Shown: in pieces, positions 16,644 to 22,540 of the stretch
Layout of the letters: every line of letters starts with the position of its first letter
Position numbering within the stretch: the first letter of the stretch is position 1
Assembly: GCA_020726335.1 (NCBI GenBank)
Contig: DYSU01000027.1
Location: 1-33,129 of the forward strand
DNA from: Thiomargarita sp.
GTDB lineage: Bacteria > Pseudomonadota > Gammaproteobacteria > Beggiatoales > Beggiatoaceae
Reading direction: 5' to 3'
DNA: 33,129 nucleotides
Position numbers and translations under genes: made by a program
The notes under the pieces: generated by a model
The model's input: only the letters and a program-made list of their open reading frames with translations
Databases searched by the model: none
Told to the model about the DNA's origin: nothing

Positions 16644-17078
16644 TTAACCTTGGATATTGGGTGGCCAATTGGCGGTCTTGATTTCTGAGACGTATTTCAA
16701 AAATTGGGCGAGGGCCTCCAGTTCATCATCTGAAAAATTGAACTGGGGCATACTGCGGCGATTGGGTATGCCTTGCGCAGGACGGCTTTTGATAAAAGCT
16801 TTAACCGCTTCAGTGCTGTTGCCAAAGCGTTTGTAGACATTCCCCAGCTCTGGTGCGAAATACGCACCTTCGCCAAGCAAAGTATGGCAACCAATGCAAT
16901 TATTCTCTTCCCATAGCCGCTTGCCTTGCGCCACTTGTTCAGTGATTGCGCCGCGATTATCGCGTTCGGGGAAGTTGGCATTGGTATGGAAAGTTAATCC
17001 TAAAAATAAGAGTAGAAAAAATAACGAGCCGCCATAGTAAATATTGCGAGCCACCGTTTTGTTCAAGACTTCGCTCAC
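16644..17078 (-). CDS. norC: NorC, cytochrome c subunit of NO reductase
   Basis: This 144-residue protein has one N-terminal membrane anchor (about 13-31) and a periplasmic monohaem domain with CIGCH at 61-65. It has the NorC-typical sequence TLLGEGAYFAPELGNVY just after the haem, and M110 in RRSMPQFNFS as the axial ligand. It passes electrons from periplasmic cytochromes or cupredoxins to NorB. The start codon is GTG, supported by AGGAG 8 nt upstream. A perfect FNR/DNR box and a GATAAT -10 element lie upstream, so norC heads the leftward nor transcript. Confidence 0.97.
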   Translation of the reverse strand: MSEVLNKTVARNIYYGGSLFFLLLFLGLTFHTNANFPERDNRGAITEQVAQGKRLWEENNCIGCHTLLGEGAYFAPELGNVYKRFGNSTEAVKAFIKSRPAQGIPNRRSMPQFNFSDDELEALAQFLKYVSEIKTANWPPNIQG

Positions 17079-17114
17079 GGTTCAATCTCCTGCTGGGTGG
17101 ATAAAAGAGCTTCG

Positions 17115-17156
17115 ATTATCTATAACCCCAAAGCCCATAACCTTGATGTGCATCAA
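17115..17156 (-). promoter_or_regulatory. FNR/DNR-type box and -10 element of the norCB promoter
   Basis: On the minus strand, TTGATGCACATCAA (17156-17143) is a perfect TTGAT-N4-ATCAA palindrome. GATAAT (17120-17115) begins 22 bp after it, placing the box centre close to -41.5 of a start near 17108, the class II activator position. The leader to norC would be about 30 nt. This is the expected control of norCB by an NO- or oxygen-sensing CRP/FNR-family regulator; the regulator itself is not in the window. Confidence 0.85.
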
Positions 17157-17720: not shown

Positions 17721-19415
17721 TTATCGGTCATTGGCTGTGGCATTGATTTCGGCTGTTGGATTATCCAGTGCCAGTTTATAGCCAACGGAAACATGATGCC
17801 AGCGGGCGGCACTGTAGTCATCGTGAATGGCAAACCCAATATTGTAGACTTTGCCCGCTTCGATGACAATATCACCTGCCGCGCCAGAATTGAGCTTGCG
17901 CGTCAGTTCAACCACCCACACACCATTCTCCAGCTTGCCCGTAAATTTCGCACCCGATCCGCCTGTCATGACCCTATCGGCAAGAATGTAACCGTTTTCG
18001 GTTGAACCATCCCCAGAGTTGAAGCGCAACAAGTCCATAAAATGTCCCGCTTTCAGCTCGGCTTGAATCGCCGCATCATCTTTACGGTTGTTATAGCCGC
18101 CCCGTTTTTTGTCTTTGCCAAACACTTTAAGATCGATTTTTGTCCGACTTTCACTGATGTATTTGGTTGCTTCCGACTTGACGGCATCCGGCATGGAATT
18201 GACATCATGATGACAGGTACCCCAACAGCCCAATTGATTGGCATATTGGGTTTCATCCGTGGTCAACATCAATGCCAGTTTGACTTGATTTTTGGCATCC
18301 ATTTTACCGCCTTCGACAAAAGGCAAGGGCGCATGGGGCGTATCTGGCCATTCAAAGCGCAGATAAAGATTTTCAGCATCATGGGTAGCACCCACTTTGA
18401 CGGGGATACTGCCGCGTTTATCAGGAATGGCTTGGGCTTCAAGTGCGGGTCTTTCGCCGCTGATAATCTTGCGCCCTATATCGGCGGCTTCTTTGTCATG
18501 ACAGGTAAAACAACGATCCCCTGCTTTAACGATGGCACGCGCGCCGCTGTGGTCTTTGCCCGTCATGACCCACTCAAAAGAGGCTTGGCCGGGGTAAAAC
18601 AGCACAATATTGCGTGTTGAGGCCTTGCCCCACGACACCGCCCCAGCCTCACTGGAGGCAATTGCTGTGGCTGTGGGCGCTTTCACTTGGATCAAGGGTG
18701 CAGTGGCTTGTGCAGTGGTTTTTATAGTGGTGGCTTCTGCCTCTGCTTTCTCTTTTTGCACTTGCTCAAAGGCTTGCCATTTGGCGGGTATCGGGCGAAT
18801 AAATGCGGGATTTGGGGTTTCCAGTGTTTCGATTTCTTCATCACTCAACTGGTCATGCACTTTTTTATGGACGATGCCTTTGTGACAATCAATGCAGGTA
18901 TTGCCTTTTTCCATGGCATTGCGGTGCTGTTGGTAGGCACGCGGCTTTTGCTGGCTCGGTTCCATGGTCTCAAAATCGTGGCAATTACGGCATTCGCGTG
19001 AATCTGTGGATTTCATCGCTACCCAGACCCGTTTTGCCATGGTCAAGCGTTCGGCATCGAATTTCTCTGGTGTTGCAACGGTTCCCATGACTTTATGAAA
19101 AACTTCGTTGCTGGCCTGAATTTTACGCACCACTTTGTGTATCCAAGGGCGCGGCACATGGCAATCAGGGCAACCTGCGCGCACCCCACTGCGGTTGCCA
19201 TCATGTATGCTGCCAACGTATTCTTGATACACATTCTCTTTCATTTCATGGCAAGAGATACAAAATTTCATTCTATTGGTGGCTTCCATGACCGTGTTAA
19301 AACCACCCCAGAAAATAATCCCTGCCACCATGAAAAACAGTGATGTGCCAAGCGTGGCACCAAACAAGGTCTTGCGCGAGAATAAGCTCGGTTTTTTGAG
19401 TGGCAAAACACCCAT
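17721..19415 (-). CDS. NirT/NapC-type tetrahaem cytochrome fused to an ethylbenzene-dehydrogenase-like haem domain
   Basis: The 564-residue protein has two parts. Residues 1-190 are a NapC/NirT quinol dehydrogenase: an N-terminal membrane anchor (about 19-38) and four CxxCH motifs at 52-56, 82-86, 142-146 and 174-178. After an Ala/Thr/Lys-rich linker (about 215-262) comes a periplasmic domain with a fifth motif, CFTCH, at 302-306 and CWGTCH (397-402), a C-x3-CH form. The strand pattern (THDAENLYLRFEW; ENGVWVVELTRKL; YNIGFAIHDD) is like the haem-binding subunit of ethylbenzene/DMSO-type dehydrogenases. It probably takes electrons from quinol and delivers them to NirS, standing in for NirT plus a soluble cytochrome. 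It lies 92 bp after nirS with AAGGAG before the start. Plain NirT proteins are about 200 residues. Confidence 0.88.
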   Translation of the reverse strand: MGVLPLKKPSLFSRKTLFGATLGTSLFFMVAGIIFWGGFNTVMEATNRMKFCISCHEMKENVYQEYVGSIHDGNRSGVRAGCPDCHVPRPWIHKVVRKIQASNEVFHKVMGTVATPEKFDAERLTMAKRVWVAMKSTDSRECRNCHDFETMEPSQQKPRAYQQHRNAMEKGNTCIDCHKGIVHKKVHDQLSDEEIETLETPNPAFIRPIPAKWQAFEQVQKEKAEAEATTIKTTAQATAPLIQVKAPTATAIASSEAGAVSWGKASTRNIVLFYPGQASFEWVMTGKDHSGARAIVKAGDRCFTCHDKEAADIGRKIISGERPALEAQAIPDKRGSIPVKVGATHDAENLYLRFEWPDTPHAPLPFVEGGKMDAKNQVKLALMLTTDETQYANQLGCWGTCHHDVNSMPDAVKSEATKYISESRTKIDLKVFGKDKKRGGYNNRKDDAAIQAELKAGHFMDLLRFNSGDGSTENGYILADRVMTGGSGAKFTGKLENGVWVVELTRKLNSGAAGDIVIEAGKVYNIGFAIHDDYSAARWHHVSVGYKLALDNPTAEINATANDR

Positions 19416-19507: not shown

Positions 19508-21214
<1,707 letters not shown>

Positions 21215-21510: not shown

Positions 21511-22068
21511 ATGCAACATTTGTCTACCATCATATTGGCCCTTTTGGGCTTGACCTTGGCCACCATTGCTGGGTTTGGTTTTATGTCGGGCAGTTATTTG
21601 GCATGGCTTGCGCTCATTTTGCTGGCATTGTTGCCTTGGTTACACAATTGGATAATGGCAAAAAGATACCTGACTTGGAAAGAAGCCTACAGCGTTGGAA
21701 TCCAAACACTGGACGATGATCATAAACGTTTGTTGTATTTAATCAACACGTTAGATACTGCCGTGCATTATCAAACCGACATCGCATTTGAGCGTCAGGC
21801 TTTAAATGAAGTGGTTGACTACACACAAACGCACTTCGCTCGTGAAGAGAAATTAATGCAAACCCATCAATACCCCGATTATCCAGACCATAAGAAACAA
21901 CATGAGGCGATGATTGCGAAAGTCAACGAATTTGTGCAACACTATGACAGTGATCGTGATGGCACAATCGAAGAACTGTTAAACTATTTGCGCGAATGGT
22001 TGATTCATCACATCCAAGGCACTGATCAAAACTACAGCGGGTATTTGACTTCACGCGGTGTGCATTGA
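21511..22068 (+). CDS. Membrane-anchored bacteriohemerythrin
   Basis: This 185-residue protein has two N-terminal transmembrane segments (about 5-26 and 29-48) followed by a hemerythrin four-helix bundle with the full di-iron ligand set: H71 (LDDDHKRL), H108 and E112 (THFAREE), H127 and H131 (HKKQH), and H167 plus D172 (HIQGTD). Bacteriohemerythrins bind O2 reversibly and some interact with NO. Tethering to the inner membrane next to NirS and NorCB suggests O2 or NO handling at the site of denitrification. The start is supported by AGGGAGA about 6 nt upstream, and the promoter carries an FNR/DNR-type box, so expression should follow low oxygen or NO. There is no terminator before the nirC promoter. 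Confidence 0.93.
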   Translation: MQHLSTIILALLGLTLATIAGFGFMSGSYLAWLALILLALLPWLHNWIMAKRYLTWKEAYSVGIQTLDDDHKRLLYLINTLDTAVHYQTDIAFERQALNEVVDYTQTHFAREEKLMQTHQYPDYPDHKKQHEAMIAKVNEFVQHYDSDRDGTIEELLNYLREWLIHHIQGTDQNYSGYLTSRGVH

Positions 22069-22078
22069 GAGGTTACGG

Positions 22079-22120
22079 TTGACCCAAATCAAGGCAACCC
22101 ATGTTTCTGCACCCGATAAT
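22079..22120 (+). promoter_or_regulatory. FNR/DNR-type box and -10 element of the nirC operon
   Basis: TTGACCCAAATCAA (22079-22092) is a near-consensus box, and GATAAT (22115-22120) begins 22 bp after it, the same spacing and the same hexamer as at norC. The start would be near 22127, giving a structured leader of about 99 nt before nirC. The box begins 11 bp after the hemerythrin stop codon. Confidence 0.82.
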
Positions 22121-22152
22121 AAACCCCGTTTATCAGGTTTTCAAACGCCCTA

Positions 22153-22183
22153 TTGCCCGTCATACACAACGTATGGACGGCAA
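22153..22183 (+). repeat. Imperfect hairpin in the nirC leader
   Basis: TTGCCCGTCATAC and GTATGGACGGCAA pair around the 5-nt loop ACAAC with two single-base bulges. The hairpin lies entirely inside the predicted nirC leader, just upstream of the terminator-like hairpin. Confidence 0.55.
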
Positions 22184-22192
22184 GGCACTTAA

Positions 22193-22222
22193 GGGGGATG
22201 ACTCTCCTCCCCCGCTTTTTTT
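22193..22222 (+). terminator. Terminator-like attenuator hairpin ending 3 nt before nirC
   Basis: GGGGGA (22193-22198) pairs with TCCCCC (22208-22213), and a run of seven T (22216-22222) follows two bases later. Any transcript that enters nirC from upstream must pass through it. It therefore either ends hemerythrin read-through or acts as a regulated attenuator of the haem d1 operon. The only good ribosome-binding purines nearby are inside its left arm. Confidence 0.7.
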
Positions 22223-22224
22223 AA
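22198..22224 (+). CDS. Candidate 8-codon leader peptide through the nirC attenuator
   Basis: ATG at 22198 opens a short frame coding for MTLLPRFF. It ends with TAA at 22222-22224, one base before the nirC ATG (TAACATG). AAGG at 22191-22194 could serve as a close-spaced Shine-Dalgarno. A ribosome on this frame would melt the hairpin and could re-initiate at nirC. The frame is short enough to occur by chance; the exact fit to the hairpin and start codon is what makes it worth noting. Confidence 0.35.
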   Translation: MTLLPRFF

Positions 22225-22225
22225 C

Positions 22226-22540
22226 ATGTTGAAAAAAATATTTATTTTATCCTTTTGCCTGCCCATGGCGGCGATTGCCGCTGACATCACCCTGCAACGA
22301 CAAGACGAACTGCTTTATTTATTGCATCAAGATTGTGGCTCTTGTCACGGCATGACGTTAAAAGGTGGCTTGGGGCCGCCGCTGTTGCCGCAAGTTTTGC
22401 AGGATAAACCCGTGGAACTGCTCAGCGCAACCATTTTATTTGGCCGTCCCAGCACACCCATGCCGCCGTGGTCGTTTATGTTGAACGCAGATGAGGCCAC
22501 ATGGCTGGCGAAGCATTTAAAAGGTCAAGCACATGATTAA
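22226..22540 (+). CDS. nirC: NirC, small periplasmic cytochrome c
   Basis: This 104-residue protein has a signal peptide (1-18, ending AIA) and a monohaem c domain with CGSCH at 37-41. A Met in STPMPPWSFML or nearby is the likely axial ligand. NirC is an electron carrier in denitrifiers, linked to NirS maturation (d1 formation) and able to donate electrons to NirS. It has no linear Shine-Dalgarno sequence directly before its ATG; the bases there are the T-run of the attenuator hairpin. The stop overlaps nirF by 8 bp, so the two are translationally coupled. Confidence 0.93.
   Translation: MLKKIFILSFCLPMAAIAADITLQRQDELLYLLHQDCGSCHGMTLKGGLGPPLLPQVLQDKPVELLSATILFGRPSTPMPPWSFMLNADEATWLAKHLKGQAHD

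Follow-up and report, generated by a model that had tools for sequence, protein, structure and literature searches.

A GC-rich hairpin followed by a run of seven T residues stands immediately before nirC, the first gene of a haem d1 biosynthesis operon in a denitrifying bacterium. We lean towards reading it as inherited from a nirS/nirC junction, an intercistronic hairpin of intrinsic-terminator type that would now act as a constitutive partial terminator in the nirC leader. It has the look of a common terminator between genes and not of a new switch that senses a peptide or a metabolite, and it probably trims expression of the haem d1 genes. The original prediction described the hairpin and proposed that translation of a short leader frame sets read-through into nirC; the additions made here are an FNR/DNR promoter and the comparative context for the hairpin, and a leader-peptide mechanism appears unlikely.

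Organization of the nirC leader

The window, that is, the whole 33,129-nt stretch of DNA analysed, belongs to a 2.1-Mb gammaproteobacterial genome. On its + strand, from 22226 onwards, it carries a haem d1 operon consisting of nirC, nirF, nirD/L/G/H-like genes, and nirJ (Table 1). Downstream of nirS, on the same − strand (17721–19415), lies a gene for a NapC/NirT cytochrome with an extra ethylbenzene-dehydrogenase-type domain (PF09459). The order nirS (−), hemerythrin (+), and haem d1 genes recurs in another gammaproteobacterium (L027, positions 1–2369), where the hemerythrin gene is followed by a hairpin and then by an FNR-like box.

Table 1 Features of the nirC leader and neighbouring genes, with positions in the window
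Feature	Position	Strand	Description
nirS	19508–21208	−	Points away from nirC in the window; in the closest relative, adjoins nirC upstream and is co-oriented
Hemerythrin-domain gene	21511–22068	+	Between nirS and nirC; ends ~10 nt 5′ of the FNR/DNR box
FNR/DNR-type box TTGACCCAAATCAA	22079–22092	+	9/10 match to TTGAT-N4-ATCAA; centre 22085.5
Predicted −10 element GATAAT	22115–22120	+	5/6 match; positioned for class II activation (site at −41.5); predicted start 22127
nirC operon leader (predicted)	22127–22225	+	99 nt; start taken from the promoter prediction
Hairpin I (upstream hairpin)	22147–22186	+	−16.1 kcal/mol; z −2.9
Terminator-like hairpin	22193–22213	+	Arms GGGGGA (22193–22198) and TCCCCC (22208–22213); loop 22199–22207
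MTLLPRFF, 8-codon frame	22198–22224	+	ATG 22198, TAA 22222–22224; judged a chance frame
T7 run	22216–22222	+	Preceded by the 2-nt spacer GC, followed by AAC and the nirC ATG (22226)
nirC	22226–22540	+	c-type cytochrome; opens the haem d1 operon; lacks a Shine-Dalgarno sequence

A dedicated FNR/DNR promoter is predicted for the haem d1 operon, along with a leader that holds both hairpins. A box and a −10 element at class II spacing come together at only two sites in the window, ahead of nirC and norC, where 0.07 are expected by shuffling. The norC promoter, on the − strand, combines a perfect FNR/DNR box, TTGATGTGCATCAA (17143–17156), with a class II-spaced GATAAT identical to the −10 element of the nirC promoter; its predicted start is at 17108 and the norC start codon is a GTG at 17078. 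Two regulators of the Crp/FNR family are encoded in the genome. Since the predicted promoter lies upstream of the hairpin, transcripts of the nirC operon must cross both the hairpin and the T run, as the original prediction argued. Between hairpin and gene there is no promoter; the only promoter-like match in the vicinity (22221–22248) lies mostly inside nirC and is at chance level.

The 6-bp stem and the T7 run, which ends 3 nt before the nirC ATG, were both confirmed in the sequence, and the second hairpin announced upstream in the same leader was found as hairpin I. Thermodynamic folding finds both hairpins stable: the 6-bp stem reaches −12.3 kcal/mol, a value equalled by 2–3 of 200 shuffles, and its pairing probability is 0.97–1.0 in a fold of the 99-nt leader. 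With six base pairs and a T7 run 2 nt further on, the hairpin has the GC-rich stem and U run of an intrinsic (Rho-independent) terminator. A strict search for six exact pairs, at least four of them GC, followed within 2 nt by at least T6, returned it and nothing else on either strand of the window (66 kb in all), with 0.18 expected from shuffles. The d'Aubenton-Carafa discriminant, with its terminator threshold of >0, gave −23.9 at best, a low value due to the 2-nt spacer and the short stem. By this classical score the hairpin is a weak terminator, which counts against reading it as a terminator at all and fits a reading with partial read-through. The T run also forms part of a palindromic AT stretch, TTTTTTTAACATGTTGAAAAAAA (22216–22238), whose centre is the nirC ATG, and these T residues could pair with an A run inside nirC.

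Hairpins at nirS–nirC junctions of related genomes

The closest relative among the genomes compared (G023, of a sister genus, locus L118) encodes a NirF 87% identical to that of the window and has nirS adjoining nirC upstream on the same strand, with a gap of 72 nt. This gap carries TTTTGGGGGAGGCGCAATCTTCCCCCTTGGTTTGTGAAC directly before the nirC ATG, with the same GGGGGA/TCCCCC stem, whose end lies 13 nt from nirC in G023 and 12 nt in the window. The loop of the G023 hairpin differs from that of the window, and its T run is poorer, being T-rich but not T7 (TTGGTTTG). At the junction of a third genus (G006, L093), GGAGGGA/TCCCTCC is followed by TCTTTTT before nirC; one paired difference, G-C to A-T, separates this stem from that of the window. 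Where the original prediction looked to relatives for conservation of the stem and the T run, the stem held, being kept in the closest relative and changed as a pair in L093, and the T7 run did not, being absent from the closest relative. An alignment of the window with G023 anchored on nirC beats 99.96% of shuffles (P 0.0004), and an unanchored local alignment gave P 0.08, which is suggestive only.

The association extends to nirS–nirC junctions in general. Hairpins equalled by at most three of 60 shuffles occur at 13 of the 17 distinct junctions, frequently without a T run. Within 80 nt upstream of nirC, a hairpin with z < −2 is present for 10/15 nirC genes preceded by nirS and for 6/63 others, a contrast indicating that the hairpin goes with the nirS–nirC junction and not with nirC itself. 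Two genomes of the same family as the window (L090 and L098) have a nirS–nirC gap full of tandem or palindromic repeats.

In the genome of the window, nirS does not adjoin nirC upstream; it is on the opposite strand, with the hemerythrin gene between them. NirS is only 62% identical between the window and G023, against the much higher value for NirF, and a second, ancestral nirS was not found elsewhere in the genome of the window. Together these observations suggest that nirS was replaced or rearranged and the hairpin left at nirC; the gene was probably replaced, or exchanged along with its orientation. Conservation of the stem at the nirS–nirC junction of the closest relative argues for an inherited intercistronic hairpin over a sensing switch. 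Counting against inheritance are the loop and T run, which the window and G023, the one close relative compared, do not have in common, and a hairpin-like sequence of its own downstream of nirS in the window. The common stem may also be convergent, because short GC stems arise easily and the unanchored alignment stays at the suggestive level given above.

An inherited partial terminator would work as follows. In the relatives, the hairpin stands between nirS, whose product is needed in large amounts, and the genes for haem d1 biosynthesis. In the genome of the window, inversion or replacement of nirS would have placed the hairpin in the leader of an FNR/DNR-driven nirC operon. Some of the polymerases coming from the FNR/DNR promoter, or reading through from the hemerythrin gene, would stop near 22222, and those remaining would enter the haem d1 genes; the outcome would be a low basal ratio, without regulation at the hairpin. 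The matching of haem d1 biosynthesis to abundant NirS in denitrifiers is mostly treated as a promoter question. The presence of a hairpin at most nirS–nirC junctions suggests a simple common answer, a built-in partial terminator, which would amount to a cheap control of the ratio if termination is measured and proves relevant. The genome of the window would then offer a natural experiment on a hairpin kept with nirC after the departure of nirS.

Alternative readings of the leader

Some of the same observations would suit a hairpin without useful termination, either a leftover or an RNA-stabilizing end structure that protects, for example, upstream hemerythrin or processed nirC messages and has little effect on nirC. 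The negative classical score agrees with such a structure, as do a stem but not a T run common to the relative and the many junction hairpins that lack a T run. We give it a minor but real chance, since the T7 run is present and the strict combination of hairpin and T6 is unique in the window.

The FNR/DNR promoter might instead chiefly make a small RNA of ~95 nt (22127 to ~22222) that folds into two hairpins and ends in U residues, nirC being expressed by read-through. The promoter, both stable hairpins, and U7 do have the spacing of a small-RNA gene, but no such unit exists in the closest relative, and the leader has neither a family homologue beyond the locus nor an Rfam match, so that we consider this improbable. 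In 43 family genomes, no homologue of hairpin I or of the leader was found outside the locus, the matches being short AT-rich or chance stretches. On the strength of these genomes and of its single copy in the genome of the window, we also reject the idea that the leader derives from a repeat or mobile element. Scanning the region against Rfam at a permissive threshold gave chance matches only, nothing near a gathering score, and a known riboswitch or other Rfam leader was rejected on the lack of a model match. There is a similarly slight chance that the leader, activated by FNR/DNR in response to NO or anoxia, yields an abundant ~95-nt RNA while some signal tunes read-through, making it a lineage-specific attenuator or small RNA. 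Such an element, if real, would link the supply of haem d1 to nitrite respiration.

The original prediction offered, as an alternative, control by a trans-acting factor or by a metabolite that the upstream hairpin senses. Regulated attenuation of this kind, comparable to that by NasT/NasR, now seems decidedly doubtful. In its favour are a tandem hairpin pair before the gene and the example of nosR of Bradyrhizobium, which is under NasT antitermination control (PMC6759348); nas, nos, and nap leaders are documented cases of attenuation by ANTAR (NasT/NasR) proteins (PMC5424462, PMC6759348). No ANTAR protein is encoded in the genome of the window, however; the same search was positive in 46/143 genomes of the class, and with this working positive control we reject ANTAR antitermination. 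An ANTAR target consists of two hairpins with hexaloops bearing A1 and G4 (PMC3369931). Such dual hexaloops are absent from the nirC leader, whose loops measure 5 nt (ACAAC) in hairpin I and 9 nt, or 3 nt if inner pairs are counted, in the terminator-like hairpin. Hairpin I is also not conserved. When the terminator-like hairpin was forbidden in folding, its arms found no alternative pairing, which leaves no antiterminator for a ribosome or a ligand to favour.

The last point bears equally on the model in which ribosomes translating MTLLPRFF open the hairpin and then re-initiate at nirC. The frame exists as described, running through the stem and ending 1 nt before nirC, and nirC does lack a Shine-Dalgarno sequence. 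A frame of this type is found at 0/15 nirS–nirC junctions tested and is missing in the closest relative, and comparable frames occur at 13% of random window positions; we judge it no commoner than chance. Its sole Shine-Dalgarno-like sequence, TAAGGGGG, abuts the ATG with a spacing of 0, and the frame contains no regulatory codons. The nirC Shine-Dalgarno sequence is also missing in L087, L090, L093, and L118, all without a leader frame, so its lack is no argument for re-initiation. Control of nirC by leader translation is, in sum, scarcely credible.

Comparison with known attenuators and internal terminators

In the open-access literature we found no report of attenuation or termination at nirS–nirC. 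The nirC leader resembles the leader-peptide attenuators of trp, his, and thr operons in having a short frame that overlaps a terminator-like stem, and differs from them in lacking regulatory codons, mutually exclusive folds, and conservation, and in its poor initiation signal. With the NasT/NasR-controlled nas, nos, and nap leaders it shares a setting in nitrogen-oxide metabolism and the presence of hairpins and a terminator-like stem (PMC5424462, PMC6759348, PMC3369931). It departs from them in the ANTAR protein, the A1/G4 hexaloop, and the antiterminator fold, all of which are absent.

A closer parallel to a partial terminator at nirC comes from Clostridia, where internal terminators have been demonstrated to set ratios within operons, for example after the substrate-binding-protein genes of ABC importers, and have U tracts weaker than those of full terminators (PMC9045158). 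The window differs in that its upstream partner nirS has probably moved away, the hairpin stands in a leader behind its own FNR/DNR promoter, and termination there is a prediction. The two have in common a stem-loop whose U tract is moderate, placed where a highly needed product gives way to accessory genes, and partial read-through is expected of such an arrangement (PMC9045158). It is plausible, by analogy, that NirS and the genes for its cofactor follow the same ratio logic.
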